64,000 bases of DNA, from NCBI RefSeq assembly GCF_023016805.1, contig NZ_JALKCH010000006.1, forward strand, positions 124,001-188,000. The letters are read 5' to 3'. The DNA comes from Ancylobacter crimeensis. GTDB lineage: Bacteria > Pseudomonadota > Alphaproteobacteria > Rhizobiales > Xanthobacteraceae. Below are positions 880 through 31,753 of this stretch, in pieces. The notes beneath the pieces were generated by a model, which did no database searches, was not told the origin of the DNA, and saw only the letters and a list, made by a program, of their open reading frames with translations. Every line of letters begins with the position of its first letter. Positions within the stretch are counted from its first letter, which is position 1. Both the position numbers and the translations under genes were made by a program.

Positions 880-1089
880 ATGAACCCGTTTGACCTCCCC
901 ACCGAGATCGTGGATCCGGCCGTCCATCGCCGCACGGTGACCCACCTTGCCGAGCGCGGCATCGCGGTCGAGGATTTCGAGCGCCGCCGGCACGCCTCGT
1001 TCCGGAAGGGGGTGACCGACCGGCTCGCCGCCCATGACGAACGCATCACCGCCATGAACCGCGACGCCGGCGTCGCGACGGCAGCCTGA
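880..1089 (+). CDS. Small protein of unknown function, first gene of the CoA-transferase operon
   Basis: This 69-residue, charged, arginine-rich soluble protein is not one I recognise. It has no membrane segment, no cysteines and no signal peptide. It ends 10 bp before the CoA-transferase alpha subunit on the same strand, so it is probably co-transcribed with it. The start at 880 was chosen over the in-frame ATG at 820 because the latter falls inside the inverted repeat at 806-822; AGGA lies a few bases before the chosen ATG. It could be an accessory subunit or chaperone of the downstream enzyme, but nothing in the sequence proves this. Coding is supported by the position and by the absence of a competing frame. 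Confidence 0.6.
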   Translation: MNPFDLPTEIVDPAVHRRTVTHLAERGIAVEDFERRRHASFRKGVTDRLAAHDERITAMNRDAGVATAA

Positions 1090-1099
1090 GGAGACGGGG

Positions 1100-2080
1100 A
1101 TGGACAGCACCGGCGAACGGCGCGGCGGCGTCACGCCCTATCTCGAACTGCGCGCGGCGACCCGCGACCGCGACCGCTCGCTGCGCGACAAGGTGATGTC
1201 GCTGGAAGAGGCGGCGAAGCTCGTCTCCGATGGAGAGCACGTCTCGCTCGGCGGCTGCACGGCCTCGCGCACCCCCTTCGCGATGATCTGGGCGCTGATC
1301 CGGCGGGGCGTGAAGGACCTCGCCGTCTCGCGCTCCATCATCTCCACCGAGGGCGACCTGCTGTTCGCCTCCGGGGCGTCCCGCCACATCATGACGAGCT
1401 GGTTCAGCCAGGGCATCGTCTGGGGCGTCTCCAAGGTCATGCGGGCCCACACCGAGAGCGGCCGCGCCCGCTTCGAGGAGTGGAGCCACATGGCGATGGG
1501 CCTGCGCTACAAGGCAGGAGCCATGGGCGTGCCCTTCATGCCGATGCGCTCCATGCTGGGCTCGGGCGTGCTGGACCGCGCCGAGGGCGCACGCACCATG
1601 GAATGCCCCTTCACCGGCGAAACGCTGCTGCTGGTGCCCGCGCTCAATCCCGACGTCGCGCTCATCCATGTCCAGCGCTGCGACGCCTATGGCAACGCCC
1701 AGCTCGACGGCCTGACCTTCATGGATGTCGACATGGCGATGGCGGCGAAGCGCGTCATCCTCACCACCGAGCGCATCGTCTCCAACGAACAGATCCGCCG
1801 CGCGCCCGACCAGACCAAGATCGGCTTCTTCACCGTGGATGCCGTTGTAGAGGTGCCGTTCGGCTCGGCGCCCCATGAGTGCTACGGCATCTATGAGCCC
1901 TTCTACGGCCATATGGATCTCTATGCGGCAATGACCGCGAAAGATCCCGATGCCGGTGCCAAGGCCTATCTCGAGCGCTTCTATCACGAACCGAAGAACT
2001 GGGCGGCCTATCTGGAGCGCATCGGCATGGCCGAGCTGCTCGACGCCCGCCGCCGCGGGAGCAGCATCTATGACGACTGA
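1100..2080 (+). CDS. CoA-transferase, alpha subunit (glutaconate CoA-transferase/IpdA type)
   Basis: This 326-residue protein belongs to CoA-transferase family I, subunit A. Such heterodimers move CoA between carboxylic acids, or in IpdAB-type enzymes act on CoA thioesters of ring-cleavage products. The region from about residue 28 (DKVMSLEEAAKLVSDGEHV) through the glycine-rich SLGGC segment is the usual N-terminal substrate-binding fold. A good GAGGAG ribosome-binding site precedes the ATG at 1100. The beta subunit follows with an 11-bp overlap, which implies coupled translation. The preceding small gene and the following LLM oxidoreductase share the strand. The exact acid substrate is unknown. 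Confidence 0.85.
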   Translation: MDSTGERRGGVTPYLELRAATRDRDRSLRDKVMSLEEAAKLVSDGEHVSLGGCTASRTPFAMIWALIRRGVKDLAVSRSIISTEGDLLFASGASRHIMTSWFSQGIVWGVSKVMRAHTESGRARFEEWSHMAMGLRYKAGAMGVPFMPMRSMLGSGVLDRAEGARTMECPFTGETLLLVPALNPDVALIHVQRCDAYGNAQLDGLTFMDVDMAMAAKRVILTTERIVSNEQIRRAPDQTKIGFFTVDAVVEVPFGSAPHECYGIYEPFYGHMDLYAAMTAKDPDAGAKAYLERFYHEPKNWAAYLERIGMAELLDARRRGSSIYDD

Positions 2081-2861
2081 AACCGCAAACGCGCCGGATG
2101 CCGCGGCCTATACCGGATCGGAACTGCTGGCGGTGATGAGCGCGCGGCTGCTGGCGGACGGGCAGACCGTCTTCGCCGGGGTTGGCATTCCCCTTCTGGC
2201 CGCCATCCTCGCCCAGCGCACCCGCGCGCCGGGCCTCACCATCCTGTTCGAAGGCGGGGTGATCGGCCCCTTCGTCGAGCCCGGCAAGCTGCCACCCTCC
2301 ACCAATGAGCAGCGCTGCGCCCGGCGCGCCAACATGCTGGTCTCGATCACAGACGTGCTGCTGATGCTGCAGCGCGGCTATGTCGATGTCGGCTTCATGG
2401 GCGGTGCGCAGATCGACCGCTACGGCAATCTGAACTCCTCCTTCATCGGCGATGCCGAACGTCCGAAGATCCGCCTGCCCGGCACCGGAGGAGGCAACGA
2501 CATCGCCAGCCTCGCCGAGATGATCGTTGCCATGAAGCACGAGAAGCGACGCTTCGTGGAGAAGGTGGACTTCATCACATCGCCCGGCTTCCTCGACGGC
2601 GGAACCAGCCGGCGCGACGCCGGCCTGCCGGCGGGCGGCATGTTCCGGGTGGTGACCGATCTCGGCATTCTCGGCTTCGATGCCGAGACGCGCGCGATGA
2701 CCGTGCTGGCCCTGCATCCCGGCGTGAGCGCCGAGACCATCAAGGCCAAGACCGGCTTTCCGCTGCCCGTGCCGGCGGATGTGCCCGTCACCATGCCGCC
2801 CACGGACCATGAGCTCGGCATCCTGCGCGAACTCGACCCCGAGCGGCTCTACACCGCCTGA
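2070..2861 (+). CDS. CoA-transferase, beta subunit (glutaconate CoA-transferase/IpdB type)
   Basis: This 263-residue partner of the alpha subunit has the family I beta fold: a GVGIPLLAA segment near residues 37-45, LFEGG with Glu61, and later ITDVLLMLQRGYVDVGFMGG. In glutaconate CoA-transferase the catalytic glutamate is on this subunit; Glu61 is my candidate by position, not by alignment. The ATG at 2070 lies inside the end of the alpha gene. A longer frame reading back to 1950 would overlap the alpha subunit by 130 bp and was rejected. The LLM oxidoreductase starts 36 bp downstream. Confidence 0.85.
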   Translation: MTTETANAPDAAAYTGSELLAVMSARLLADGQTVFAGVGIPLLAAILAQRTRAPGLTILFEGGVIGPFVEPGKLPPSTNEQRCARRANMLVSITDVLLMLQRGYVDVGFMGGAQIDRYGNLNSSFIGDAERPKIRLPGTGGGNDIASLAEMIVAMKHEKRRFVEKVDFITSPGFLDGGTSRRDAGLPAGGMFRVVTDLGILGFDAETRAMTVLALHPGVSAETIKAKTGFPLPVPADVPVTMPPTDHELGILRELDPERLYTA

Positions 2862-2897: not shown

Positions 2898-3845
2898 ATG
2901 CCAGCACCCGTCTCCTACGGCATCGCGATGCGCAACTTCACCCGCTTCCCGGAAATGCCGGATGCGCGCGCGCTGATCGACTATGGCGTGCGCATGGAGG
3001 AATTCGGCTTCGAATCGCTGTGGGTGTGGGACCACATCCTGCTCGGCACTGACCCCAATTTCCCGATCATCGATTCGCTCTCGCTGCTCACGGCGGTCGC
3101 GGCCCTTACCTCGAAGATCCGCATCGGCACCGGGGTTCTGGTGCTGCCGCTGCGCAACCCGGTGATCCTCGCCAAGCAGCTGTCCTCGATGGACCTGATC
3201 TCGAACGGGCGCCTCACGCTCGGTGCGGCGGTGGGCTGGTACAAGCGGGAGTTCGACGCCGTCGGCATCCCCCATGATCGCCGCGGCAGGATCATGGACC
3301 GCAACCTCGACATCCTGCGCCGGCTCTGGACCGAAGAGAGCGTCACCGGCGAATGGGACGAGCTGAACCTGCGCAATGCGGTGATGTTCCCCAAGCCCGT
3401 GCAGAAGCCGCATCCCCCGATCCTGGTCGGCGGCTATGTCGACGTGGTGCTGAAGCGCGCGGCGACCAAGGGCGACGGCTGGCTCACCTATTTCTACACG
3501 CCGGAGGGCTATCGCGAGGCCTGGGCGAAGATCTGCGCCTATGCCGAGGAAGCCGGCCGCGACCCGGCGGACCTCGACAGCCTCAACCAGCTTCCGATCT
3601 ATGTCGGCCCGCGCGAGGAAGGTATGCCCCTCATGACGGAGTGGCTGAACGCGGAATGGGACCTGTCCAAGGGCAGCCAGTCCACTTTCGACAGCGCCAT
3701 CGTCGGCACGCCGGAGGAATGCGCCGAACAGATCGCCGCTCATGTCGCCACCGGCGTGAAGAACATCTGCTTCGTGCCCTGGCGCTACCATCGCGAGCAG
3801 GTCGAGGCGCTGGCGCGGGACGTGCTGCCGCTGCTGCGGCGCTGA
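2898..3845 (+). CDS. LLM-class oxidoreductase, probably F420-dependent
   Basis: This 315-residue luciferase-like TIM-barrel protein resembles the family of F420-dependent oxidoreductases related to Mycobacterium Rv2161c. Typical features are the N-terminal EEFGFESLWVWDHI segment (about residues 33-47), RIGTGVLVLP, the GRLTLGAAVGWYKREF segment, and VGGYVD before the C-terminal half. Use of F420 rather than FMN is inferred from the family and from F420 biosynthesis genes in the same island (4248-6737 and 28122-30732). It is the third enzyme gene of the CoA-transferase operon. A role in oxidising or reducing the same unknown substrate is likely but unproven. Confidence 0.8.
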   Translation: MPAPVSYGIAMRNFTRFPEMPDARALIDYGVRMEEFGFESLWVWDHILLGTDPNFPIIDSLSLLTAVAALTSKIRIGTGVLVLPLRNPVILAKQLSSMDLISNGRLTLGAAVGWYKREFDAVGIPHDRRGRIMDRNLDILRRLWTEESVTGEWDELNLRNAVMFPKPVQKPHPPILVGGYVDVVLKRAATKGDGWLTYFYTPEGYREAWAKICAYAEEAGRDPADLDSLNQLPIYVGPREEGMPLMTEWLNAEWDLSKGSQSTFDSAIVGTPEECAEQIAAHVATGVKNICFVPWRYHREQVEALARDVLPLLRR

Positions 3846-4247: not shown

Positions 4248-6737
4248 TTACGCGGATTGTTCGCGCAGCGCCGCGAGGCTGCCGATCTTTGCCCGCTTCC
4301 CGGCCGGCGCCTCCAAGCGCGGCGTGAGCACGGGCGCGGCGAGCGAAGCCCGCCTCTGCGCTTCCGGCGCATCGCCATACAGCGTGGTGCGCTGGCGCGG
4401 AATGCGCCCCAGCCCGTGGATGACGGCTTCCATCCGGGCAGGCGGAAACTCCTGCCCATGGATGCCGCCGGCTGCGCGACTGATGGATTCGTCCATCAAG
4501 GTGCCCCCCGCATCGTCGGCGCCGGCCTGCAACGCGGCGGCAAGCCCGCCTTCGCCGAGTTTCACCCAGGACGCCTGCACATGGCTCACCACCGGATCGA
4601 GCGCCAGCCGCGCCACCGCGTGCATCAGCAGGGCCTCGCGGCGGCTCGGCCCGGCACGGGTGCCGCCCTTCAGGAACAGCGGCGCTTCCATGTGAAGGAA
4701 CGGCAGCGGCACGAATTCAGTTAGCCCGCCCGTCTCCTGCTGGAGATGGCGCAGCCGGAGCAGGTGCCGGGCCCAGTGCACATAGCCATCGACATGGCCG
4801 AACATGATGGTCGAGGTGGTCTTCAGCCCCACCCGATGCGCGCTGGCGATGGTGTCGAGCCAGTCCTGCGTCGTGAGCTTGTCGGTGCAGATGAGGCGGC
4901 GCACCTCGTCATCGAGCACCTCCGCCGCCGTGCCGGGCAAGGTGCCCAGCCCGGCTGCCTTCAGCATGGCAAGAAATTCCGACACCGGGACGCCCAGCGT
5001 CGCCGCACCGTGCCGCACTTCCAGCGCGGAGAAGGCATGGACATGGAGGTCCGGCACCGCCGCCTTCACCGCGCGGACGATGGAGAGATAGGTGTGGCCT
5101 GAATAATCCGGGTGGATGCCGCCCTGCATGCACACCTCGGTCGCCCCCCGCGCCCACGCCTCGCGGGCGCGGCGGCGAATCTCGTCGAGATCGAGCTCAT
5201 AGGGCCGGCCGCGCAGATGTTCCGCCGCCTTGCCTTTCGAGAAGGCGCAGAAGCCGCAGCGATAGGAGCAGACATTGGTGTAGTTGATGTTGCGGGTGAC
5301 GACATAGGAGACGCGCTCCCCGACCCTGTCCCGGCGCAGAGCATCGGCCGCCACGAACACCGCTTCGGCTTCTTCCCCGCGTGCCTCGAACAGCCGGACG
5401 ATCTCCACCTCGCCTAGCGTGCTCCCGGCGAAGGGCTTTTCCAGCAACGTGGCGAGCGCGCCCGCCGGCCCGCGGAGCATGGGTGCGGCGGGCGTCGAAG
5501 CCGCGCCGGGCCACTCCACCACCGTATCGCCGAAGGTATCGCTCCCGCCCACGCGCCACAGGCTCTCATGGGCCAGCCCGGCGGCATCGGCGCGGCGCTG
5601 CACCCGTGCACGCAGCGCGGAATCCAGCCAGACATCCGGCTGCGCGAGGTGCCGCGGATAGATGGCGAGGCGTGGCGCCAGCACCTTGCCAGCACGCCGT
5701 GTCGCGGCCGCGAGCGCGGCCAGCGCCGGCCATGGCGCCTCGGGATTCACGTGATCCGGCGTCACCGGGGAAACGCCGCCCCAGTCATTGATGCCGGCAT
5801 CGATGAGCGCCGCCAGTCCGTCCGGCCGAAGGTTTGGCGGCGCCTGCACGCTGATGCCGGGCCCAAGGATCAGCCGCGCCACGGCCACGGTCCAGAGATG
5901 GTCCTCCAGCGCCGGCTCGGGCGCATCGGCCATCCTGGTCCCGGCCTTGGCGCGGAAGTTCTGGATGATGACTTCCTGCACATGGCCGTGCCGCTCATGC
6001 GAGGCCCGGATGGCGAGCAGTGCCTCGATCCGTTCGACCCGCGTCTCGCCGATGCCGATCAGGAGCCCGGTGGTGAAGGGCACCTTCGCGCGCCCGGCCG
6101 CCTCCAGCGTCGCGAGGCGCACGGTCGGCTGCTTGTCCGGCGAGCCGAAATGCGGACCGCCCCGCGCGGAAAGCCGTGCGGCCGTCGTCTCGATCATGAG
6201 CCCCTGCGAGGCGGAGACCTGACGCAGCCGGGCCAGATCGGCCTCGTCCATCACACCGGCATTGATGTGCGGCAGCAGTCCCGTTTCTTCCGCCACGCGC
6301 TTCGCCATGGCGGCGAGATAGTCGAGCGTCGTGGCGAAGCCAAGCGCGGCGAGTTCCTCACGCGCGACGGCGTAGCGCAGCTCGGGCTTGTCGCCGAGCG
6401 TGAACAGCGCCTCGTCGCACCCTACCCGCGCTCCGGCCTGGGCGATCGCCAGCACCTCGTCGGGGGTCAGGAAGGCGCGCTGGCCCCTCCTCGGCGGGTG
6501 GGCGAAGGTACAGTAGTGGCAGACGTCGCGGCAGAGCTGGGTGAGCGGGATGAACACCTTGCGCGAGACGGTGACGAGGCTGCCAAAGCCGGCATCGCGT
6601 ACCCGCGCGCCCGCACGCATCAGCGCGCCGAGGTCGTCCAGGCCGGCCAGTTTCATTGCGTCGGCTTCCGGGAGCCGGCCGCCGCCGGCAAGGCGGCCGG
6701 CAACCTCGTCGAGAGATCCGCTCGCCAGCCCCGCCAT
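4248..6737 (-). CDS. fbiC: Bifunctional FO synthase (CofG-CofH fusion)
   Basis: The protein makes FO (7,8-didemethyl-8-hydroxy-5-deazariboflavin), the chromophore of coenzyme F420, from tyrosine and the flavin precursor 5-amino-6-ribitylaminouracil. Its 829 residues contain two radical-SAM halves, each with CxxxCxxC: Cys69/73/76 in the CofG half and Cys490/494/497 in the CofH half. This layout and length match actinobacterial FbiC. Archaea and cyanobacteria usually carry two separate proteins. Translation is coupled to pxpA: the ATG shares one base with the pxpA stop (TGATG at 6739-6735). The other cof genes lie 22 kb away at 28122-30732. Confidence 0.95.
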   Translation of the reverse strand: MAGLASGSLDEVAGRLAGGGRLPEADAMKLAGLDDLGALMRAGARVRDAGFGSLVTVSRKVFIPLTQLCRDVCHYCTFAHPPRRGQRAFLTPDEVLAIAQAGARVGCDEALFTLGDKPELRYAVAREELAALGFATTLDYLAAMAKRVAEETGLLPHINAGVMDEADLARLRQVSASQGLMIETTAARLSARGGPHFGSPDKQPTVRLATLEAAGRAKVPFTTGLLIGIGETRVERIEALLAIRASHERHGHVQEVIIQNFRAKAGTRMADAPEPALEDHLWTVAVARLILGPGISVQAPPNLRPDGLAALIDAGINDWGGVSPVTPDHVNPEAPWPALAALAAATRRAGKVLAPRLAIYPRHLAQPDVWLDSALRARVQRRADAAGLAHESLWRVGGSDTFGDTVVEWPGAASTPAAPMLRGPAGALATLLEKPFAGSTLGEVEIVRLFEARGEEAEAVFVAADALRRDRVGERVSYVVTRNINYTNVCSYRCGFCAFSKGKAAEHLRGRPYELDLDEIRRRAREAWARGATEVCMQGGIHPDYSGHTYLSIVRAVKAAVPDLHVHAFSALEVRHGAATLGVPVSEFLAMLKAAGLGTLPGTAAEVLDDEVRRLICTDKLTTQDWLDTIASAHRVGLKTTSTIMFGHVDGYVHWARHLLRLRHLQQETGGLTEFVPLPFLHMEAPLFLKGGTRAGPSRREALLMHAVARLALDPVVSHVQASWVKLGEGGLAAALQAGADDAGGTLMDESISRAAGGIHGQEFPPARMEAVIHGLGRIPRQRTTLYGDAPEAQRRASLAAPVLTPRLEAPAGKRAKIGSLAALREQSA

Positions 6738-7510
6738 CAGGCCATCATCTCGGGCAGCGTCACCATTTCGATGCCGGCGGCCTTGAGGCCCTGCTGAACC
6801 GCGGTTGCGACCGCGACCGCGGTGGGCTCGTCGCCGTGGATGCAGAGCGAATCGAACTGCGTCGCCAGCCGCTTGCCGTTCACCGAGAGGATCTCGCCGG
6901 TTTCGACCATGCGTACGGTGCGCTCCGCCGCCAGCGCCGGATCGCGGATCACCGAGCCGGCAATGGCACGGGACTGAAGGTTGCCATCATCGTCATACAT
7001 CCGGTCGACGAAGGCCTCGCGGGCCAGCTTCAGGTCGAGCGCCAGCGCGGCCTTCTCCATCTCCGAGCCGGAGAGCGCGAGATAATAGAGGGAGGGATCC
7101 ACCGTCTTGATCGCCCGGCCGATCGCCATGGCATAATCGGCATTCACCGCAGCCATGTTGTTGAGGGCGCCATGAGGCTTCACATGCGTTACCTTGATAC
7201 CGGCATAGCTCGCCATGGCGGCGAGCGCGCCGAGCTGGTAGGCCACGAGATATTCGAGGTCCGACGCGCTCATCTGGATGTTGCGGCGACCGAAGCCCCA
7301 GATGTCGTTGAAGCCGGGATGGGCTCCGATCGAAACACCGTTCTCCTTCGCCTTCAGGCAAACCCGGCGCATCACCGTCGCGTCGCCGCCATGCTGGCCG
7401 CAGGCGACGTTCACGCTCTTCACCAGACCGAGAATGGCATCGTCATTCCCGATGTCGTAACGGCCATAGCCCTCGCCCATGTCGGCGTTAATATTGATGC
7501 GCAGGGTCAT
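6737..7510 (-). CDS. pxpA: 5-oxoprolinase subunit A (LamB/YcsF family)
   Basis: PxpA, PxpB and PxpC together form the bacterial ATP-dependent 5-oxoprolinase, which opens the lactam 5-oxoproline to glutamate. This 257-residue protein has the family hallmarks: LRININADMGEGYGRYDIGND at the N-terminus, SVNVACGQHGGD (about residues 33-44), VSIGAHPGFND and KPHGALNN. It is divergent from pxpB across the inverted repeat at 7581-7598 and forms an operon with fbiC. Its association with F420 genes rather than with sugar or amino-acid genes raises the possibility that it hydrolyses a related lactam; that is inference. Confidence 0.92.
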   Translation of the reverse strand: MTLRININADMGEGYGRYDIGNDDAILGLVKSVNVACGQHGGDATVMRRVCLKAKENGVSIGAHPGFNDIWGFGRRNIQMSASDLEYLVAYQLGALAAMASYAGIKVTHVKPHGALNNMAAVNADYAMAIGRAIKTVDPSLYYLALSGSEMEKAALALDLKLAREAFVDRMYDDDGNLQSRAIAGSVIRDPALAAERTVRMVETGEILSVNGKRLATQFDSLCIHGDEPTAVAVATAVQQGLKAAGIEMVTLPEMMA

Positions 7511-7683: not shown

Positions 7684-8433
7684 CTGTCGGCTCGCAGCAT
7701 CGCTGATCTTGCCCGTTTCCTGCCCGTCGGCGACACCGCCTTCGCCATCGAGTTCGGTGCGGCGATCGACCCGGCGCTGAACGCCCTGGTGCATCGCGCC
7801 GCCGCGCGGATCGCGGCCGACCCGCCGCCCGGCGTGATCGAGACGGTTCCGACCTTCCGTTCGCTTCTGGTGCATTACGACCCGCGCATCGCCGGGGCCG
7901 AATCCATCCAGGCCGCGCTCGGCTCCTGCGATCTGGGCGATACGGCGACGGCCGCGCCGGCGCGAATCTGGGTGCTGCCGGTGCTGTATGGCGGCGAAGC
8001 CGGGCCGGATCTCGCCGACACCGCCACCACGCTCGGCCTGCCGCCGGAGGAGGTGGTCGCACTCCACTCGGGCGGTCTCTACCGCGTCTATGTGCAGGGC
8101 TTCCTGCCCGGCTTCGCCTATCTCGGCGATCTTGATCCGCGCCTCGACCTTCCGCGCCTTTCGACGCCACGGGTGCGGGTGCCGCCCGGCTCGGTCGCCA
8201 TCGCCCAGCGCATGACCGGAGTCTATCCCATCGAATCGCCCGGCGGCTGGCGGCTGCTGGGCAACACGCCGGTGCGCTTCTTCGATGCCGCGCGCGAGCC
8301 CCCGACCCTGTTCGCCCCCGGCGACGGAGTGCAGTTCCGGCCCGTGATGGCGGACGAGCATGCGGCGATCCGCGCGGCGGTGGCACGCGGCGCCTATGAA
8401 CCCGAATGTCGCGACGGGGAGGCCGCCCGATGA
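7684..8433 (+). CDS. pxpB: 5-oxoprolinase subunit B (KipI family), probable CTG start
   Basis: PxpB is the KipI-like subunit of 5-oxoprolinase. The conserved beginning FLPVGDTAFAIEFG and the later QGFLPGFAYLGDLDPRL and PRVRVPPGSVAIA segments identify it. The first ATG/GTG-type start is the GTG at 7789, which would remove about 35 conserved residues. No ATG, GTG or TTG occurs in frame between the stop at 7597-7599 and that point. A CTG at 7684 sits 5 bases after a strong GAGGAGG (7672-7678) and gives 249 residues, the usual family size. I therefore annotate CTG as the start. The gene overlaps pxpC by ATGA. Confidence 0.88.
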   Translation: MSARSIADLARFLPVGDTAFAIEFGAAIDPALNALVHRAAARIAADPPPGVIETVPTFRSLLVHYDPRIAGAESIQAALGSCDLGDTATAAPARIWVLPVLYGGEAGPDLADTATTLGLPPEEVVALHSGGLYRVYVQGFLPGFAYLGDLDPRLDLPRLSTPRVRVPPGSVAIAQRMTGVYPIESPGGWRLLGNTPVRFFDAAREPPTLFAPGDGVQFRPVMADEHAAIRAAVARGAYEPECRDGEAAR

Positions 8434-9494
8434 ACACCGCGCCCGGTGCCGGGCTGCGCATCCTGCAACCCGGCCCGCAGACCACCGTGCAGGATCTTGG
8501 ACGCAAAGGCCACCAGGCGCTCGGCGTGCCGGTGTGCGGCGCGCTCGATCCGGTGGCGATGCGCCTTGCCAATGCGCTGGTCGGCAATGCCGAGGACGCC
8601 GCCATCATCGAATGCCGCCTCGCCGGCCCGGCCTTCGAGGTCACCGGCGCGCCGCTGCGTCTGGCGCTTGCCGGCGCGGAGGCGACCATCACGGTGGAAG
8701 CCGGCGGCACGAGCCTCGCCTTTCCCGCATGGCGCGGCTTCGACGCGCCCACCGGCGCCACGGTGCGCATCGGGCCGCTGCGCGGGTCCGGTTGTGCGAG
8801 CCTTGCCGTCGCCGGCGGCATCGCTGTCGCCCCGGTGCTCGGCTCGCGCGCCACCGATCTCAAGGGGCGGTTCGGCGGCCATGAAGGGCGGCCGCTCGCG
8901 GCGGGCGACCTCTTGCCGGTGGGGACCGCCGCCGCCGATGGTCCGTGCCTCGAACTCCCGGCCGCGCCGCCGCTCGCCTTTTCCGGGACGCTGCGGGTGG
9001 TGCTCGGCCCGCAGGCGGACGCCTTCACCGACGAGGGTATCGCCGCCTTTCTGGGCGGGCCGTTCGAGGTGACGCGCGAGGCCGACCGGATGGGAATGCG
9101 GCTGTCGGGACCCGCCTTCTCCTTCGTCCGCGGTGCCGATATCGTGTCGGACGGCATCGCCACCGGTTCGATCCAGGTTCCGGGCTCCGGACAGCCGATC
9201 GTGCTACTGGTCGATCACCAGACCATCGGCGGCTATGCCAAGGTCGCGACCGTGATTTCCGCCGACCTTCCCGCCGCGGGGCGACTGCTGCCGGGGGCCT
9301 CGTTGCGCTTCGTCGCAGTGTCGGTCGCCGAGGCGGAGGAGGCGAGGCGGCAGCTCGAAGCGGAAATCGCGCGGTCGATCGGCACCCTTGCCCCCGTGCG
9401 GTCGCCTGTCAGCCTCGACGAGGCGGCGCTTTATGCGAGCAACCTCATCTCCGGCGCCGTCAGCGCGCTGGAAGAGGTTCATCCTTTCGATTGA
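8430..9494 (+). CDS. pxpC: 5-oxoprolinase subunit C (biotin-dependent carboxyltransferase-like family)
   Basis: PxpC is the KipA-like partner of PxpB; the two subunits act with PxpA in ATP-dependent lactam hydrolysis. The 354-residue protein starts LRILQPGPQTTVQDLGRKG and contains PVCGALDPVAMRLANALVGN and the C-terminal QTIGGYAKVATVISADL block, all typical of the family. The ATG at 8430 overlaps the pxpB stop (ATGA). An in-frame ATG at 8406 would overlap pxpB further and has no better ribosome-binding site. The regulator gene follows 91 bp later on the same strand. Confidence 0.92.
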   Translation: MNTAPGAGLRILQPGPQTTVQDLGRKGHQALGVPVCGALDPVAMRLANALVGNAEDAAIIECRLAGPAFEVTGAPLRLALAGAEATITVEAGGTSLAFPAWRGFDAPTGATVRIGPLRGSGCASLAVAGGIAVAPVLGSRATDLKGRFGGHEGRPLAAGDLLPVGTAAADGPCLELPAAPPLAFSGTLRVVLGPQADAFTDEGIAAFLGGPFEVTREADRMGMRLSGPAFSFVRGADIVSDGIATGSIQVPGSGQPIVLLVDHQTIGGYAKVATVISADLPAAGRLLPGASLRFVAVSVAEAEEARRQLEAEIARSIGTLAPVRSPVSLDEAALYASNLISGAVSALEEVHPFD

Positions 9495-14903: not shown

Positions 14904-14953
14904 AATCTCCCGGACCGCCCCTGACGGCGGCCGGGACAGGTGGAGACCGGGTG

Positions 14954-20115: not shown

Positions 20116-20218
20116 GGCTTTCCTCACGAGAACGGCGCGCGGGCGCGGCGGCGGCAGAGGGCCGGCGCCAGCGCCGGACGACGCGAACGGAATGGACGAG
20201 CAAACATCGGGCCGCCGC

Positions 20219-24263: not shown

Positions 24264-25673
24264 TCACAACGTGCAGGATTTGCCGCCGCACAGCTTCAGG
24301 AGCGTCGCCTGGCCCTCTTTGGCGCCTTCCTCGGGCGTCATCTTGCCGAGGCCGACCTGCTGGGCGATGCCGCTCATGGCGTCGAACATCTCCGGGTACT
24401 TCTCCATCTTCGGGCGCGCCACCGCGACGTCGAGCGAGGACTTCATCGCCGCGAACAGGGTCGGGTTGGTGCTGTCCTTGATGGCGGGAAGCGCCCACGA
24501 GCTCTCGCGGATCGGCACGCCGCCCTGGCCCATCTCGATCAGCTTGTCCTGCTGGCGCTTGTCGGCGAGCCATTGCAGGAACAGGAAGGTCGCCTGCGGC
24601 TGCTTGCTGGCGGCGTTGATGACGGTGACCGAGGGCTCGGCGTCGGCATGGCGGTGCGCCTCGTTGCCGGCCTTGGCCGGAACCGGGCCGTAGACGAACT
24701 TGCCCGCATAAGGAGACACGCCCGGCTTGTCGATGCCCAGCACGAAGTCGGACCACGCCAGCGACTGGGCGGCGATGCCGTTGCCCATCACGGTCGGCAC
24801 GTCCACCAGCGAATATTCGGCGATGCCGGGCGGGGCATAGGTCCACAATTCGCGCCACATCTTCAGCGCGGCCACGACCTGCGGGGTGTCGAAGGTCGGC
24901 TTGCCGTCCTTGTCCAGAACGTCGCCGCCATAGTTCTCGATGAAGTTCACCCAGAGGTTCGAGAAGGTCGAGCCGCCCTTGATGCCTTCCAGCACGATTC
25001 CGTAGAAATCGCTCTCCAGCGGCTTGCCGGCCAGCATCTCGCCCTTCTTGCGGGTGAAGAACTGGGCGATGTCGCGCATCTGCTCGATGGTCTTGGCCGG
25101 GGCGAGGTCATAGCCGTACTTCGCCTTGAACGCCGCCTTTTCGGTCGGGTCGTTCAGAAGGTCGGCGCGCGCCCAGTAGACGTGGTTGTAGTTCCAGTTG
25201 ATGAAGCCGTACTGCTTGCCATCATAGAAGGCGGTGGTCTTGTAGGGCGCGGCGATGAAATCGGCGGCGTTGAGGCCGGGGTCCATCAGCTTGGGATCGG
25301 CGACGAAGCCGTCGAGCGGCAGGATGACGCCGGCGGAGAGCATCGGGCCGAGCTGCGAGCCGTGCAGCATGATCGCGTCGTAATGGCCGCGGCCCGACAG
25401 CATGTCGGCCTGGCCCTTGTTGATCACCTCGAAATGGTTGAGCAGCTCCCACTCGACCTTGATCCCGGTCTCCTTCTCGAAGTCCGGCACGATCTTGGAG
25501 AGCGTCTCCTGCAGCGGGGTGATCTCGTCCAGCACCCGGATGGTGGTGCCCTTGTAGGGCGCGGCGGCCTTGGCATAGAAGGCGGCCTCGTCCGCGAGCG
25601 CGGGCCGCAGGGGCGGCGCCAGCACGGTCGTTGCCGCCAAGGCGGCGGCGAAACACCAGATCTTACGCGTCAT
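24264..25673 (-). CDS. ABC transporter extracellular solute-binding protein
   Basis: This 469-residue periplasmic binding protein has a signal peptide (about residues 1-27, ending PALADEA) and a family 1 binding-protein fold: TIRVLDEITPLQETLSKIV, FEKETGIKVEWELLNH, then QYGFINWNYNHVYWARADL. It captures the substrate for the permease pair downstream. The aromatic residues in the last segment could stack on a ring, but no ligand can be assigned. It follows the second ATPase gene by 42 bp. Confidence 0.9.
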   Translation of the reverse strand: MTRKIWCFAAALAATTVLAPPLRPALADEAAFYAKAAAPYKGTTIRVLDEITPLQETLSKIVPDFEKETGIKVEWELLNHFEVINKGQADMLSGRGHYDAIMLHGSQLGPMLSAGVILPLDGFVADPKLMDPGLNAADFIAAPYKTTAFYDGKQYGFINWNYNHVYWARADLLNDPTEKAAFKAKYGYDLAPAKTIEQMRDIAQFFTRKKGEMLAGKPLESDFYGIVLEGIKGGSTFSNLWVNFIENYGGDVLDKDGKPTFDTPQVVAALKMWRELWTYAPPGIAEYSLVDVPTVMGNGIAAQSLAWSDFVLGIDKPGVSPYAGKFVYGPVPAKAGNEAHRHADAEPSVTVINAASKQPQATFLFLQWLADKRQQDKLIEMGQGGVPIRESSWALPAIKDSTNPTLFAAMKSSLDVAVARPKMEKYPEMFDAMSGIAQQVGLGKMTPEEGAKEGQATLLKLCGGKSCTL

Positions 25674-25715: not shown

Positions 25716-26858
25716 TCAGTTGCCGGGAAGCGCCCGGCCGCTCGCGCCGTCGAAGAGGACCATCCCTCCGACGGGAAGTGTAAGGCCGGCAGCCCGGCCG
25801 ATGCCGCCATCGGCGCCGAAGCGCTGCGAGATGGCCATGGAGGTCTTCACCTTGGCGAGCAGCCCGCCGAGATCGGCGGTGACGATGGCGTGCTTTCCGA
25901 AGGGTTCGTTGGAATAGATCTCGGCCTGCACCGCGCCGGGTACCTCGGGCGCGGCGAAGCCCATTGCGTCGGGGCGCACGCCGAGCGTCACCGCCGGTGT
26001 CGTCGCCTCGCCGGCGGCGGCCGCCAGCGCACCCGCCAGCGGCACCCGCAACTCGCGGCGCATGAAGAACAGCGCACCGCCCTCGCGCAGGAGCTCGCCC
26101 TCAATGAGGTTCATCGGCGGGTCGCCGATCAGCTTCGCCACCCGCGTCGTCGCCGGGCGCAGCCAGATGTCCTCCGGCGTGCCGACCTGCTCGATCCGCC
26201 CCTCCGCGATCACCGCCACCCGGTCGCCGACCGACAGCGCCTCCATGCCGTCCGGGGTCGACCAGATCGTGGGCACCGTCCCGGCGGCGAGGCGGCGGCG
26301 GATTTCCCCGCGCAGCTTGTAGCGGAGCTTGGCGTCGAGATGGGAAATCGGCTCGTCCAGCAGATAGAGTGCGGGCGACTGCACCAGCAGGCGCGCCAGC
26401 GCCACGCGCTGCTTCTGGCCGCCCGACAGCGCGCCCGGCAGGCGCGCCGCGAGATGGGCCATCTCCAGAAGCTCCAGCACCTCGTCGACGCGCTTTTCCG
26501 CCTCCGCCGCCGGCAAGCGGCCACCCGGCGCCTGAAGGGGAGAGAGCGCGTTGCCGCGGACGGTGAGGTGGGGATAGAGCGCGTAGCTCTCGAACATCAG
26601 CGCCACCCGGCGCTGGCCCGGTGCGAAGGCGTCGAGCGTCCTGCCGCCGAGCGCGACCGATCCCGCGTCCGGCCGCTCCAGCCCGGCCAGGAGCCGGCAC
26701 AGCGTGGTCTTGCCGGCGCCCGAAGGCCCGGTGAGCGCCAGCACTTCGCCGGGAGACACGTCAAGGCCGATATCGGTCAGCACTTCGCGGGCGGCCCCCC
26801 CGACGGCGAAGCTCTTGGCAAGGCCGCGCGCGATGAGACCGGAATGGGCAGCGGTCAC
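25716..26858 (-). CDS. ABC transporter ATPase lacking the H-switch histidine
   Basis: This 380-residue MalK-like ATPase has Walker A GPSGAGKT (44-51), signature LSGGQ (144-148) and Walker B LYLLDEP. Where ATPases normally have THDQ, it has STPDGMEA, with Pro202 in place of the switch histidine. The C-terminal part is a TOBE-like regulatory domain. The GTG start overlaps the stop of the first ATPase gene (GTGA). With its partner (26855-27949) it probably forms a heterodimer with only one fully active ATP site. Confidence 0.9.
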   Translation of the reverse strand: MTAAHSGLIARGLAKSFAVGGAAREVLTDIGLDVSPGEVLALTGPSGAGKTTLCRLLAGLERPDAGSVALGGRTLDAFAPGQRRVALMFESYALYPHLTVRGNALSPLQAPGGRLPAAEAEKRVDEVLELLEMAHLAARLPGALSGGQKQRVALARLLVQSPALYLLDEPISHLDAKLRYKLRGEIRRRLAAGTVPTIWSTPDGMEALSVGDRVAVIAEGRIEQVGTPEDIWLRPATTRVAKLIGDPPMNLIEGELLREGGALFFMRRELRVPLAGALAAAAGEATTPAVTLGVRPDAMGFAAPEVPGAVQAEIYSNEPFGKHAIVTADLGGLLAKVKTSMAISQRFGADGGIGRAAGLTLPVGGMVLFDGASGRALPGN

Positions 26859-27949
26859 GATGCAGCCTCCAGATTGGTCTGGCTGGCGGCGTCGAACACC
26901 AGCAGCCGGCCGACATCGAGCCCGACGCTCACCCGGTCGCCGGCCCTGAAGGCGGCGGGACCGGGGATTTCCGCCACCATCCGCCCGCCCTTCACTCCGC
27001 CGGCATCGTCCAGCACCACGGTCAGCACGTCGGCATCGCCGCGCGGCTCGCGATAGGAGACGACCCCCTGCGCATCGCCGGCCGTGCCGGGAGGAAGCAG
27101 GCGCACATGCTCGGGTCTTATGCCGGCGACGATGGCACCGTCGGAGAGTTTCGCCCGCCGCGCCGCCGGCAGCGTGACGGCCCAGCCCTCGCCGACCACG
27201 CGGGGACCGTCCCACGCCGCCTTCATCAGGTTCATTGGCGGCTCGCCGATGAAATTGGCGACGAACAGGTTGGCCGGGCGCTCATAAAGGTCCTGCGGCG
27301 CGCCCACCTGCTGCAGCACGCCGTGATTCATCACCGCCACCCGGTCGGCCATGGCGATCGCTTCGGTCTGGTCGTGGGTGACGAGGATGGAGGTGACCTG
27401 CCTCAGCTTCTGCAGCCGCTTGATCTCGGCACGCAGCTGCACCTTCTGGTCGGCATCGAGATGGGAGAGCGGCTCGTCGAACAGGATCACTTCCGGGTCG
27501 CGCACCAGCGCCCGGCCGATCGAGACGCGCTGCATCGCCCCGCCGGAGAGGCCGCGCACCGACTGGTCGGCCATCTGCCGGAGGCCGAGAAGCTGCAGCA
27601 CCTCCCCGACCCGCGCCGCCGCCGGCTGCCCGGCCATGCCGCGCACCTTGAGAGGAAAGGCGACGTTCTCCCACACCGTCATCTGCGGGTAGAGGGCGTA
27701 ATCCTCGAACACCATCGCGATGTTGCGGGCGCCGGGGGCGAGGCGCGAGACCGGACGCTCGCCGAACCAGATCTCGCCGGACGACACCTGCTCGATGCCC
27801 GCCGCCATCTTCAGCGTGGTGCTCTTCCCGCAGCCCGACGGGCCGAGCAGGGCCAGCATCTCCCCCGCCGCGCAGGCGAGATCGAGATGCTTCACCGCAT
27901 CCACCGCGCCATAACGCTTGAAAACCGACTGGAAGGCGATCGACGACAT
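26855..27949 (-). CDS. ABC transporter ATPase, first gene of the catabolic/transport operon
   Basis: This 364-residue MalK-like ATPase has Walker A GPSGCGKS (36-43), signature LSGGA (134-138, Gln replaced by Ala), Walker B VILFDEP and an intact switch histidine, His192, in VTHDQTEAI. A TOBE domain follows. It is the complement of the second ATPase: this one keeps the histidine and has the weaker signature, the other has the reverse. Upstream lie a sigma-54-like element (27989-28003) and a 10-bp palindrome (28014-28023). Confidence 0.92.
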   Translation of the reverse strand: MSSIAFQSVFKRYGAVDAVKHLDLACAAGEMLALLGPSGCGKSTTLKMAAGIEQVSSGEIWFGERPVSRLAPGARNIAMVFEDYALYPQMTVWENVAFPLKVRGMAGQPAAARVGEVLQLLGLRQMADQSVRGLSGGAMQRVSIGRALVRDPEVILFDEPLSHLDADQKVQLRAEIKRLQKLRQVTSILVTHDQTEAIAMADRVAVMNHGVLQQVGAPQDLYERPANLFVANFIGEPPMNLMKAAWDGPRVVGEGWAVTLPAARRAKLSDGAIVAGIRPEHVRLLPPGTAGDAQGVVSYREPRGDADVLTVVLDDAGGVKGGRMVAEIPGPAAFRAGDRVSVGLDVGRLLVFDAASQTNLEAAS

Positions 27950-28003: not shown

Positions 28004-28013
28004 AAGTGTGCTG

Positions 28014-28121: not shown

Positions 28122-28988
28122 TCAGCTCCGGCCGGACCCCGGCACCGCGGTGCGCAGCATGGACCAGAGGGCCCCGAGCCGCTCCTTGGCCGCCGCGGCC
28201 TGTTCCTGCGCCGCGGCCTGCGCCTCAGCGCGCCGCGCCGCCTCCGCGTCCGGCACCGGATCGGCGGCAAGCGCCGGCTCGCCGGCCAGCAGGCGCGCCG
28301 TGCAGGGGCCGGGCTGCATCCCGGCCAGCGCCGCGAGGTCGTCCGGCGTGTCGATGTCGAGCGCGATGCCGCGCGAGCCATGGATGCGCGGGCGCACCCC
28401 GCGAGCCGAGGCGGAGGCGGAATGGCGGGCGAGGCTGCCCGGCCCATAGGCCGCCGGCAGCAACGCCGGCGGGCTCGCCAGCAGCGCATTGGTGCCCCCG
28501 CCCGCCCGCGCCGGGGCCAGCGTCACCGCCGGGCTGCGGCCGGGCGTGCCCGCACCATGGGCATCGATCAGCCCGACGATCTCGGCCGCGGTGATGCAGG
28601 GCAGGTCGGCCGGCAGCACCAGCATGCCCTCCGTCCCCTGTGCGGCAAGGCGCCGCGCCGCGCCATCCACCGCCGCGTTGAGCCCGGCTTCCGGGCCCTG
28701 CCCGCCGGCCGGGGGAGCCGCTTCCGGCTCCACCACCGCGCCGTGGCGGGCCGCGATCGCCGCCGCGCCGGGTTCCGAGGTCACGACCCTTATCGCAACC
28801 AGCCGTTCCGGACGGAGCACGGCAGCGGCCGCGAGCGCGGCGAGCACATCCTCCAGCATGGCGCTCGCAAGGCCGGGGCGCGCGGCGAGCGGCAGGGCCT
28901 CGGCCAGCCGGCTCTTGGCGGCATCGAAGGCCTTGACCGGCACCACCGCGCAAAGGCCCCCGGCGAGGCCCGCATTCCCGTCACTCAT
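28122..28988 (-). CDS. cofC: CofC-like guanylyltransferase of F420 biosynthesis
   Basis: CofC activates a phosphorylated three-carbon acid (2-phospholactate, phosphoenolpyruvate or 3-phosphoglycerate, depending on lineage) with GTP for transfer to FO. The 288-residue protein has the family start AVVPVKAFDAAKSRLAEAL and a downstream LPADLPCITAAEIVGLID segment. The ATG at 28988 overlaps the cofD stop. An alanine- and glutamine-rich tail of roughly 60 residues follows the catalytic domain. Which acid is used cannot be read by eye; phosphoenolpyruvate would need a reductase that is not in this operon. Confidence 0.88.
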   Translation of the reverse strand: MSDGNAGLAGGLCAVVPVKAFDAAKSRLAEALPLAARPGLASAMLEDVLAALAAAAVLRPERLVAIRVVTSEPGAAAIAARHGAVVEPEAAPPAGGQGPEAGLNAAVDGAARRLAAQGTEGMLVLPADLPCITAAEIVGLIDAHGAGTPGRSPAVTLAPARAGGGTNALLASPPALLPAAYGPGSLARHSASASARGVRPRIHGSRGIALDIDTPDDLAALAGMQPGPCTARLLAGEPALAADPVPDAEAARRAEAQAAAQEQAAAAKERLGALWSMLRTAVPGSGRS

Positions 28989-29944
28989 GAAGCTGCCCCC
29001 GCCTGCCATCCCAGCGCCTCGAGAACTCGGCGGGCGAGGCGCGTCCGGTCCTCCAGCGTGCGCATCCATGTGGGCGCCGCCACCGCGCGCATGCCGGCGG
29101 GCACGGCGAGCCCTTCATCGGCTTCGTCGACGACCAATATGTCGACCAGCCCCTCATAATGCCGCGCCACCGTGGCGGCCGAAGGCTCCAGCCCCAGCTC
29201 GCGCATCATCTTGGCGGTCGGTCCCTTCACCGCCTGCCCGGCGATGATCGGGGAGACCGCCAGCACCGGCACCCGGCGATTCTCCAGCGACGCGCGCATG
29301 CCCGGCACGGCGAGGATCGGGTCGATCGACAGATAGGGATTGGACGGGCAGATGATGATGGCCGCCAGCGCCGGATCATCGAGCGCCGCCGCGACCCCGG
29401 GCGCCAAGCGCGCGTCCTCCGCCCCGTCGAAGGCCAGCGCCTCCACTTCCGGCTCGCAGCGCCGGCCGACGAAATAGGGCTGGAAGTCGAGCCAGCCCTC
29501 GCTTTTCGTCTTCACCCGCGTACGCACGGGATCATCGCTCATCGGCAGGACGGCCGAGCCGATGCCGAGACGGCTGCGCAGGCGCTCCGTCACCGCGGAC
29601 AGCGTCTCGCCCGCCGCCAGCAGCCGGCTGCGTTCGACATGGGTGGCGAGGTCGCCGTCGCCGAGCAGGAACCAGTCCTCCCCGCCCAGCGCCTTCAGCG
29701 CCGCCATGAAGGTCCAGGTCTCATCCTTGCGGCCCCAGCCGCGCACCGGGTCGTCGAGGCCGGCCAGCGTATAGAGCAGGGTGTCGATGTCCGGCGAGAC
29801 GTGAAGGCCGAGATGGACGAAATCGTCGCCGGTATTGGCCAGCACCGTGAGCCGGCCGGCCGGCAGCACCCGGTCGAGCCCGAGGGCGAGCTTTGCCCCG
29901 CCTATGCCGCCCGACAGGGCCAGAAGCTGCGCATCCGCGCTCAT
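28985..29944 (-). CDS. cofD: 2-phospho-L-lactate transferase (F420-0 synthesis)
   Basis: CofD joins the activated phospho-acid from CofC to FO, making F420-0 or its dehydro form. The 319 residues include the nucleotide-binding [18 protein letters not shown] start (about residues 9-26), [18 protein letters not shown] and the [15 protein letters not shown] segment, all typical of the family. It overlaps both cofE upstream and cofC downstream by 4 bp, giving a tight cofE-D-C unit behind the fgd-like gene. Confidence 0.95.
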
Positions 29945-30732
29945 CGAAACAGGTCCTCGCCCGCAGGCCGAACCAAATCACCCGCGCAGCCATGGGGATA
30001 GCGCGATGCGAGGCCGCGCACCAGCACGATCGGCCGCCCCTCGCCGGCCTGTCCCATCAGCAGCGAGGCGGCGGAGGCGATCTCGTCGGCGAAGCCGATG
30101 ACCGTGACCTCCAGCGTGCGGCCGAAGAGGTCGCTCTCGCCTCGCTGGTCCACCAGCGCCGGCAGCCCGGCGACGCCGAGCGCGATGCCCATGGTGCCCT
30201 GCCGCCACGCCCGGCCGAAACTGTCATTGATGACGATGCCGGGCGCGATGCCGGTGCGGGCGGAGAGGTCGTCCCGCAGCCGCGCCGCGCTGGCGTCCGG
30301 GTCCAGCGGCAGCAGCAGCGCATGCTCCCGTTCCCCGGCCGCGACATTGGAGCGGTCGATGCCGGCATTGGCCATGACGAAGCCGAGCCGGTGCTCGACG
30401 ATGAGCACGCCCGCCCTGGCCCGCACCACCCGCGTGCTTTCGGACAGCACCAGTTCGACGAAGCGCGGGTCCTTGCGCACGGTGGCGGCAAGTTCCAAAG
30501 CGGGCGCGGAGGGCACGACCGTTTCAAGATCGACCAGCCGGCCCTCGGCCTTGGAGACGATCTTCTGCGCCAGCACCAGCACATCGTCCGGCGCGAGGCT
30601 GCGCCCGGCGCGCGCCAGCCCGTCCAGCACCAATGCGGCGAGATCCTGGCCCGGCCCGACGAGCGGCACATCCGGCAGGGCGAGGAGTTCGAGGGAGGCG
30701 GACGGCTGCATCGCGGGGTCTGGAGGCCTCAT
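29941..30732 (-). CDS. cofE: F420-0:gamma-L-glutamate ligase
   Basis: CofE adds glutamate residues to F420-0. The 263-residue protein has [15 protein letters not shown] (about residues 49-63), the [16 protein letters not shown] segment and [15 protein letters not shown], which bind GTP, metal and F420-0 in the family. It lacks the C-terminal nitroreductase-like FMN domain of mycobacterial FbiB, which reduces dehydro-F420. The start could also be the ATG 21 bp inside (30711). It follows the fgd-like gene by 16 bp. Confidence 0.93.
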
Positions 30733-30748
30733 CGGGCGCCGGCGCCGC

Positions 30749-31753
30749 TCAGCCGTGAAGGGCTCGCAGGCGCGGCAGGATCTCGGTGGAATAGAGCTTC
30801 AGGAATCGCTCCTGGTCGGTGCCGGGAGCATGGAACACCAGATGCCGGAAGCCCAGCGCGATGTAGTCGCCGATGCGCGCGACATGCTCGTCTGGGTCGG
30901 ACGAGACGATCCAGCGCTTCGCCGTCCGCTCGGCCGGCAGGGCGTCGGCGAGACGCTCCATTTCCAGCGGATCCTCCACGCTCATCTTCTCCTCGGGCGA
31001 GAGCGCAAGCGCCGCCCACAGCCGCGTGTCGTCGCGGGCGCGGGCAGGGTCGGGATCGAAGGAGACCTTCATCTCGATCATCCGGTCGTAACCCGCCGGA
31101 TCCCGCCCCGCGGCGGCGAGGCCCTCCGCGACGTTGGGCAGGAGCGTGTCGCGATACAGTTCCCAGCCCTTGCCGGAAGTGCAGATGAAACCGTCGCCGG
31201 CGCGACCGGCATATTTGGCGATCATCGGTCCTGCGCCGGCTATGTAGATCGGCACCGGCTGTTCGGGTCGGTCATAGATGGTGGCGCGCTCGGTGCGGTA
31301 ATAGTCGCCCTCGAAGGTCACGCGCTCCTCGCTCCAGAGCTGGCGGATGAGGCGCACCGCCTCGCGCAGCCGGGCCGAACGCTCCTTCATCTCCGGCCAT
31401 GCGGCGCCGGTCGCCGGCACCTCGTTCAGCGATTCGCCGGTGCCGACGCCGAGGATGATCCGGCCCGGGAACATCTGGCCGAGCGTGCCGAAGGCCTGCG
31501 CCACCATGGAGGGATGATGACGGAAGGTGGGTGTCAGGACGCTGGTGCCCATCACGATCCGCGAAGTCGCGGCTCCCACCGCGCCCAGCCAGGCGATGGC
31601 GGAAGGCGCGTGCCCCCCGGTGTGCCTCCAGGGCTGGAAATGATCGCTGACAAACACCGAATCGAAGCCGGCGCGTTCCGCCGCAACTGCGAAATCGAGC
31701 AGGGTCCGGGCGTCGAACTGTTCCGCAGATGCTTTGTAACCGAGCCTGAGCAC
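30749..31753 (-). CDS. F420-dependent glucose-6-phosphate dehydrogenase-like protein
   Basis: This 334-residue LLM protein is strikingly similar to mycobacterial FGD1 as I remember it: [43 protein letters not shown] and [10 protein letters not shown] recur in order. Asp37, His38, Trp42 and Glu107 correspond to FGD1 Asp39, His40, Trp44 and Glu109, and the phosphate-contacting lysine of TSGKG is present. FGD reduces F420 with glucose 6-phosphate. The GTG at 31753 follows GGAGGGAGGA and gives the right N-terminus. It heads the cofE-D-C operon, so it likely regenerates F420H2. A sugar- or alcohol-specific variant is possible. Confidence 0.88.

Follow-up and report, generated by a model that had tools for sequence, protein, structure and literature searches.

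A complete set of F420 biosynthesis genes in a conserved, candidate catabolic island of Ancylobacter crimeensis

Gene content and layout of the island

We analysed 64,000 nucleotides of the genome of Ancylobacter crimeensis, a soil bacterium (NCBI RefSeq assembly GCF_023016805.1, contig NZ_JALKCH010000006.1, positions 124,001 to 188,000 of the forward strand), hereafter the window, in which an island at 820-31753 combines the genes for synthesis and reduction of F420, a rare cofactor of low potential, with putative catabolic enzymes and an importer. Gene calling together with Pfam and NCBIfam scans gave 27 island genes, numbered g1-g27 (the host genome itself is G000), which include, besides members of recognised families, one gene remnant (g1) and one protein without a family (g16). 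Every family listed in a preliminary description of this DNA was confirmed where it had been placed; that description had also set the start of the island at 880, a position inside the g1 remnant. The genes are listed below, with bit scores given against model cut-offs.

820..1089, + strand: g1, remnant of a gene for a CysK-like pyridoxal phosphate (PLP) enzyme ('PALPcys'), both ends kept and about 410 residues of the middle gone
1100..2080, + strand: g2, CoA-transferase subunit A, glutaconate type (PF01144; best solved relative 1poi chain A, E 3.8e-44)
2070..2861, + strand: g3, CoA-transferase subunit B (PF01144; 1poi chain B, E 3.7e-47; residue E61)
2898..3845, + strand: g4, LLM oxidoreductase, TIGR03619 'F420-dependent' (203.9 vs 166.9)
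4248..6737, - strand: g5, FbiC, FO synthase, a CofG/CofH fusion (NCBIfam)
6737..7510, - strand: g6, PxpA, LamB/YcsF family (Pfam, NCBIfam)
7789..8433, + strand: g7, PxpB (TIGR00370, 167.3 vs 145.55)
8430..9494, + strand: g8, PxpC-like (TIGR00724, 271.4 vs 230.2)
9586..10341, + strand: g9, GntR/UTRA regulator (Pfam)
10363..11544, - strand: g10, molybdenum (Mo) hydroxylase small subunit with two 2Fe-2S domains, fused to CoxG (Pfam; eight Cys in the Fe-S region)
11541..12350, - strand: g11, Mo hydroxylase FAD subunit (PF00941)
12347..14797, - strand: g12, Mo hydroxylase large subunit (Pfam; PYRGVAR loop, GEGG glutamate)
14951..17257, + strand: g13, second, orphan Mo hydroxylase large subunit (Pfam; AYRGAGR loop)
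17259..18005, - strand: g14, phosphoribosyltransferase (PRK06031, 293.6 vs 175)
18002..19564, - strand: g15, GMC oxidoreductase (Pfam)
19603..20127, - strand: g16, protein of 174 residues (no Pfam or NCBIfam match at E 0.001)
20219..21391, - strand: g17, accessory LLM oxidoreductase (under the cut-off of all 23 models matched)
21411..22361, - strand: g18, accessory FmdA-type amidase (PF03069)
22374..23210, - strand: g19, ABC permease (Pfam)
23227..24147, - strand: g20, ABC permease (Pfam)
24264..25673, - strand: g21, solute-binding protein, sugar/polyamine-like (Pfam)
25716..26858, - strand: g22, ABC ATPase (Pfam)
26855..27949, - strand: g23, ABC ATPase (Pfam)
28122..29009, - strand: g24, CofC/FbiD (142.2 vs 105)
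28985..29944, - strand: g25, CofD/FbiA (303.5 vs 257.45)
29941..30711, - strand: g26, CofE/FbiB ligase domain (264.1 vs 180.65)
30749..31753, - strand: g27, FGD-type F420:glucose-6-phosphate dehydrogenase (TIGR03554, 505.1 vs 420; Mycobacterium tuberculosis FGD1, E 4.8e-143)

Fourteen genes on one strand, from g27 (FGD) to g14 (phosphoribosyltransferase), form a run in which every gap is at most 172 bp, and pxpA (g6) and fbiC (g5) overlap by one base. Genes g19-g23 make up a five-gene ABC importer of the CUT1 type; comparisons of solute-binding proteins gave no hint of their ligand. Rfam had no match anywhere in the window.

Co-inheritance, recurrence and exchange of parts

FbiC, CoA-transferase B, the Mo hydroxylase large subunit and CofD share one distribution across 30 Ancylobacter genomes, all four occurring in 22 and all four lacking in the other 8, in counts that take no account of host kinship. 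The importer's binding protein g21 and a close GMC orthologue (81% or more) each occur in 20 of the 30, the own genome included, and are additionally missing only from G007 and G010, both of which have another cluster architecture. Two genomes (G012 and G029) have the island split between two distant places with both halves retained. At the cofC-cofE junction, CofD is gone from four genomes (G004, G008, G024 and G027) and a 60-63% copy stands on another contig, showing that cofactor genes can be re-sourced.

Leaving the window itself aside, 19 window-type neighbourhoods of the genus were fetched. The orphan subunit g13 occurs in 17 of them; amidase g18 and the LLM oxidoreductase g17, present in 11 and 5, respectively (the stretches of G012, G029 and G020 do not reach this part), are not core. 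FGD lies in 15 of 20 window-type stretches, the window included, and no such stretch has NpdG. Of the five stretches that lack FGD, two belong to the split islands, one is that of G020, which is cut by a contig end, and two are those of G015 and G018, in which FGD is displaced beyond the stretch. In G018 (L135-L136) and G015 (L143-L144), an insertion of about 11 kb separates the orthologues of g14 and g15.

The neighbourhood comparison proposed in the preliminary description was carried out, and conserved co-occurrence was found both within the genus and in 20 distinct clusters of other architecture (G010 within the genus, standing for itself and its sister G007, and 19 outside it, with L037/G060 counted once, as are L086 and G406, two contigs that agree in length and gene content). 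Gene content was scored by tblastn at a coverage of at least 50%, with identity cut-offs that we set for each family. Since FbiC led to six of these clusters (G010, L037, L043, L054, L060 and L063) and CoA-transferase B to the other 14, the presence of either protein is partly due to selection, each having served as query for its share. The best 80 of at least 593 FbiC loci were kept, and six among these 80 (L037, L043, L054, L060, L063 and L086) carry close non-F420 core genes nearby in a different order. One more, L050 (Bradyrhizobiaceae AGun1), has FbiC and CofC/D/E next to a more distant Mo hydroxylase (49/46/38%, the large subunit at 49%) and may be a distinct, though related, F420 catabolic cluster.

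The least biased test outside the genus used CoA-transferase B to search 397 Hyphomicrobiales genomes and returned 15 matches besides the own genome at 62-76%, the next standing at only 44%; 13 of the 15 loci were fetched, and an F420 cluster surrounds 12 of them, the exception being the weakest match (G314). The matches include Afifella pfennigii (G259), and the clusters of other architecture include Kaistia granuli (G389). A plasmid search gave 12 records with CoA-transferase B at 60-80%, and the two that were examined, Sinorhizobium meliloti R28 pSymA and a Sinorhizobium fredii SMH12 plasmid, both carry the module. A draw of 398 genomes across the phylum matched the own genome alone, and the module is therefore rare overall. 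In two haloarchaeal CoA-transferase neighbourhoods (about 45% identical) the annotation shows neither LLM nor F420 genes, and an F420 locus on a plasmid of Aromatoleum EbN1 has fbi genes, NpdG and GntR with no annotated Mo hydroxylase, CoA-transferase or LLM.

Across the 20 clusters, FbiC occurs in all, CoA-transferase A and B, the g4 orthologue, GntR, CofD and CofC in 19 each, CofE in 18 and the Mo large subunit in 17. All have NpdG and none has FGD. The hydrolase is M20 only in 10 clusters, Pxp only in six, both in three and neither in one (L037, with 10 kb flanks), several Pxp-scored clusters showing PxpA or PxpB alone within the stretch. Ten clusters have only a CysK-like PLP enzyme, four only a diaminopropionate ammonia-lyase, four both and two (L054 and the short contig L086/G406) neither, while three additionally carry an Fe-S L-serine ammonia-lyase. 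For transport, 13 have a HAAT permease, three a TRAP system and none the window's CUT1-type binding protein.

Three steps have interchangeable enzymes: FGD or NpdG, PxpABC or an M20 hydrolase, and a CysK-like PLP enzyme or diaminopropionate ammonia-lyase. The transferable core comprises the Mo hydroxylase, GntR, the CoA-transferase, LLM g4, the F420 genes and a ring/amide hydrolase. The GMC oxidoreductase, second Mo large subunit, phosphoribosyltransferase and CUT1-type importer are genus-specific additions, to which the amidase and g17 are added in some species. The preliminary idea of a catabolic route coupled to local synthesis of its cofactor is supported by a gene set conserved as a unit across genomes, reordered, and outside the genus too.

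It could be argued that the island is no single pathway and that unrelated operons lie together by accident, given that both strands are used, two genes are unconserved and the Ancylobacter additions are missing from the other clusters. The shared presence and absence in 30 genomes, the recurrence in other orders in 20 clusters, the retention of both halves after the island was split and the one-base pxpA/fbiC overlap all speak against this account, which we consider very improbable. Chance co-location of the island genes is likewise very unlikely because conserved co-occurrence is joined by operon structure, as seen in that overlap and in the 14-gene run.

In seven of eight families compared (FbiC, Mo large, Mo FAD, CoA-transferase A, CoA-transferase B, LLM and CofE; GntR was left out), the proteins of the Ancylobacter genome G010 resemble those of S. 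fredii and Kaistia more closely than those of the window. Its LLM, for instance, is 57% identical to that of the window, 86% to that of S. fredii and 93% to that of G389, while its CofD gives no clear signal (57% window, 54% S. fredii, 61% G389). By this measure the module travels for the most part as one unit. When the pairwise identities of six core proteins are compared, the families correlate with each other (r 0.55 to 0.87), a correlation that host kinship also favours.

The conserved PLP enzyme has been lost from the window. Window positions 862-981 and 940-1086 match residues 17-56 (55%) and 472-520 (61%), respectively, of the intact CysK-like protein of G006, and an intact gene occurs in 21 of the 22 cluster-positive and none of the 8 cluster-negative genus genomes, the sole exception among the former being the window genome. 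This genome has a diaminopropionate ammonia-lyase on another contig (C19), as do only 3 of the 21 other cluster-positive genomes, with a hydantoinase/carbamoylase-family amidase gene and then an M20 gene following it. The C19 protein passes PRK08206 (497.7 vs 276) and TIGR01747 (285.8 vs 274) and misses the TIGR03528 equivalog (315.7 vs 532.25), so that it is named at family level only. It is likely that this lyase substitutes for the deleted CysK-like enzyme. Comparing the profiles of the two families gave no match. The preliminary suggestion of a complete route does not hold within the window, the conserved PLP enzyme being a deletion remnant whose likely substitute lies elsewhere. At L151 35941-37134, on S. 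meliloti R28 pSymA, the diaminopropionate ammonia-lyase is called as two short frames; in S. fredii it is one frame.

Enzymes and the proposed route

The F420 pathway, previously called near-complete, is in fact complete, with FbiC, CofC, CofD and CofE each above its curated cut-off. FbiC has 829 residues, reaches 1115 bits against a cut-off of 1018 for PRK09234 and carries two radical-SAM CxxxCxxC motifs. The island encodes full F420 biosynthesis, and production of F420 by the host is predicted from these genes. The FGD-like reductase and two further LLM proteins (g4 and g17) were likewise found as described; g27 passes the FGD model and carries the aligned motifs TSGKG, EEKMS, AKRWI, DHFQPW and GTGE. 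Three further loci (L048, L066 and L067, from Acetobacteraceae and Bradyrhizobium) have FbiC, CofC/D/E and a 69-73% FGD; their LLM matches are weak (31-36%), the stretch contains nothing else close to the core, and they represent a different F420 cluster with the same FGD.

In an alignment of 18 sequences, identity to g4 is 58-89%. The predicted structure of g4 (pLDDT 89.6) resembles FGD, Mer and FMN luciferases equally well, and since the structural match lists tie between F420 and FMN enzymes, the case for F420 use comes from genomic context: FbiC lies near the g4 orthologue in all 19 clusters of other architecture that have one, five of which were found through FbiC alone. We propose g4 as a candidate F420H2-using ring or acyl reductase.

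The closest solved protein to g12 is the large subunit of quinoline 2-oxidoreductase (QorL, 1t3q; E 2.7e-139), a relationship that makes an N-heterocyclic substrate plausible; the window enzyme differs in that its small subunit additionally has a CoxG domain. Aerobic CO dehydrogenase, whose CoxL loop has the motif AYxCSFR, was considered and rejected, as the corresponding loops read PYRGVAR in g12 and AYRGAGR in g13 and the two reach only 474.1 and 438.4 bits against the 991.15 of TIGR02416. Just outside the island, at L206 11047-12000 and window 1-387 (- strand), lie an orphan Mo hydroxylase FAD subunit below its model cut-off and a small subunit recognised by eye; these have no adjoining large subunit and could partner the orphan g13.

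Together g2 and g3 are a class I CoA-transferase of the glutaconate type. E61 of g3 aligns with the Glu of glutaconate CoA-transferase (1poi chain B) that we take to be catalytic, and ILFEGG is kept in all seven CoA-transferase B orthologues checked. A ring hydrolase of the IpdAB type (6co6 and kin, which we take to be IpdAB) was set aside, because glutaconate CoA-transferase is a much nearer solved relative than the IpdAB chains and the Glu is retained. This transferase type, with the amidase and the hydroxylase, would fit a pyridine-carboxylate route of the Azorhizobium nicotinate type, a pathway reportedly described, with its kinship, by Kitts et al. in 1989 and 1992, in which 6-hydroxylation would be followed by F420H2 reduction to a tetrahydro-oxo ring, lactam opening and glutarate/glutaconate CoA activation. 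As far as the chemistry can be inferred, such a ring would yield no substrate for diaminopropionate, cysteine or serine lyases, and we regard the route as distinctly unlikely.

Among the ring-opening enzymes, PxpA passes NF003814 (327.2 vs 226) and reaches none of three narrower PxpA equivalog models, while PxpC (g8) stays under the cut-off of the 5-oxoproline-specific model NF045499 (207.9 vs 500). The set is filed as PxpABC-like, not as 5-oxoprolinase, and a related ring is therefore possible as substrate. 5-Oxoprolinase is inhibited by L-2-imidazolidone-4-carboxylate and cleaves L-2-oxothiazolidine-4-carboxylate, behaviour in keeping with a ring derived from an azole; a term search of two papers found neither statement. 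If the substrate were instead pyrrole-2-carboxylate, or a hydroxyproline-derived pyrrole, hydroxylation at C5 and F420H2 reduction would give 5-oxoproline, which a true 5-oxoprolinase would convert to glutamate. PxpABC would then have its named reaction, in keeping with the curated models that PxpA and PxpB pass, and the hydroxylase type would fit; yet the PxpC score falls short, and the accompanying CysK-like enzyme, ammonia-lyase or serine ammonia-lyase would have no job, leaving this option a decidedly doubtful one.

The presence of M20 and ammonia-lyase also brings pyrazine-2-carboxylate into consideration, the N-C-C-N skeleton of which would give diaminopropionate through hydroxylation, F420H2 reduction, opening to N-acyl-2,3-diaminopropionate, M20 deacylation and the ammonia-lyase. 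This scheme needs deacylation after opening, whereas M20 and Pxp mostly replace each other (both occur in 3 of 20 clusters), and the literature searched offered no lead to it; we find it quite improbable.

The 22/8 co-occurrence, the halves kept after the split, the recurrence, the enzyme substitutions and the CoA-transferase Glu all support reading the island as a module. We give about an even chance to its being a transferable catabolic module for a small N-heteroaromatic carboxylate that follows an oxidise-then-reduce strategy with F420H2. In the sequence of reactions that we propose, the QorL-like Mo hydroxylase (g12/11/10) would hydroxylate the ring next to N to give a lactam or cyclic urea, and the glutaconate-type CoA-transferase (g2/g3) would form a CoA ester. 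LLM g4 may then pass a hydride from F420H2 to the conjugated ring and end its aromaticity, the F420 being supplied by FbiC and CofC/D/E and presumably reduced by FGD with glucose 6-phosphate here and by NpdG with NADPH elsewhere. The resulting 5-oxoproline-like ring would be opened by the ATP-driven PxpABC, or by the M20 metallohydrolase in other clusters, and the PLP enzyme (CysK-like, or diaminopropionate ammonia-lyase as here) would release pyruvate and ammonia. As to the Ancylobacter extras, one may speculate that the GMC oxidoreductase and the second Mo large subunit oxidise alcohols and aldehydes to the acid, which the amidase would free from amides.

We hypothesize that the substrate is an azole-4-carboxylate, a class with which each conserved enzyme would be used once. 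The reduced 2-oxo form of such a compound would be a 5-oxoproline isostere, and imidazole would lead to 2,3-diaminopropionate, thiazole or oxazole to cysteine or serine. Stated in full, the LLM enzyme with F420H2 would dearomatise a CoA-activated 2-oxo-azole-4-carboxylate aerobically to this isostere, PxpABC or M20 would open it, releasing CO2 and yielding diaminopropionate, cysteine or serine, and which PLP lyase a cluster has would depend on the ring heteroatom (N, S or O); in this detail the scheme is unlikely.

Several neighbouring genes may be noted. A region upstream of the window (L206 1-10983, G000:C23) has an ArgE-type M20 enzyme that passes its cut-off, an HpaB-like monooxygenase and an ABC binding protein of the sulfonate type that fall short of theirs, and a flavin reductase-like gene recognised by eye, and looks like a further catabolic locus adjoining the island. 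On the other side, window 32074-41454 holds GlpD, two ABC ATPases, permeases, a binding protein and GlpK, an ordinary-looking glycerol operon separate from the island, and a Xanthine/uracil-type permease (PF00860) lies at window 47187-48986, 15 kb off the island.

Relation to described systems and significance

In the part of the openly licensed PMC literature that was accessible, no description of this gene set as one pathway was found. The preliminary view that no such pathway has been described stands to this extent, but much of the set is in print for a 26-kb region of S. meliloti pSymA linked to nodule competitiveness by a genome-wide association study (GWAS; PMC8407117). According to the available part of that article, the region shares with the window fbi genes, LLM, GctA/GctB, a CoxL-type subunit and GntR, and also has M20, diaminopropionate ammonia-lyase, a Liv importer and PntAB; it is given there as a list of GWAS-tagged functions without a pathway, and the role of F420 "deserves further attention". 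In strain GR4 of that study, the CoA-transferase and FbiC matches lie on NC_019848.2. In the copy of S. meliloti R28, NpdG, a HAAT importer and M20 take the place of the window's FGD, CUT1-type importer and PxpABC.

By analogy, the closest described chemistry, with the same apparent logic, is reductive uric acid degradation, which the consulted portion of PMC12507026 reports from Escherichia coli and Clostridioides difficile and, with a putative F420-dependent LLM reductase, from a Chloroflexota variant. The common elements are an Xdh-family enzyme, reductive dearomatisation, amidohydrolases including M20, release of 2,3-diaminopropionate and a PLP lyase; unlike that pathway as set out there, the island adds a CoA-transferase and PxpABC and has the F420 genes on site. 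The uric acid pathway as such was rejected for the window, as g1-g27, to which the scan was confined, have no match to the SsnA/HyuA family (PF01979); Sinorhizobium clusters have a dihydroorotase. The M20 protein of G010, the one cluster M20 scanned, is not of the YgeY family (124.9 vs a cut-off of 321), and the window island is without M20.

Picrate degradation in Rhodococcus and Nocardioides is similar to the proposed route in that an LLM-type enzyme passes a hydride from F420H2 to an aromatic ring in support of growth, and differs in its nitroaromatic substrate and in its occurrence in Actinobacteria, the excerpted text of PMC8498797 mentioning no Mo hydroxylase, CoA-transferase or Pxp. The island also shares ATP-driven lactam opening with 5-oxoprolinase PxpABC and the ATP-dependent lactamases, as outlined in the available portion of PMC8453981, its PxpA and PxpB passing the family models; unlike the former, it has a PxpC under the 5-oxoproline-specific cut-off and is set among F420 genes.

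The same portion of PMC8498797 reports no more than traces of F420 from two Alphaproteobacteria, which was taken to mean a minor or niche role, and lists F420-reducing enzymes in this class with question marks. In the island, F420 synthesis, F420 reduction and a candidate reductase that would use F420H2 are tied to one defined gene set, which sister species either have or lack in its entirety, and the role of the cofactor is thereby testable. A physiological reading is also offered for the S. meliloti nodule-competitiveness region, as far as it is described in the text available (PMC8407117), together with a predicted connection between the dearomatisation of heterocycles and the chemistry of diaminopropionate. 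More generally, the azole reading, if true, would provide a general route for azole carboxylates in bacteria and, within the reach of the partly accessible literature, the first pathway-level role of F420 in Pseudomonadota catabolism.

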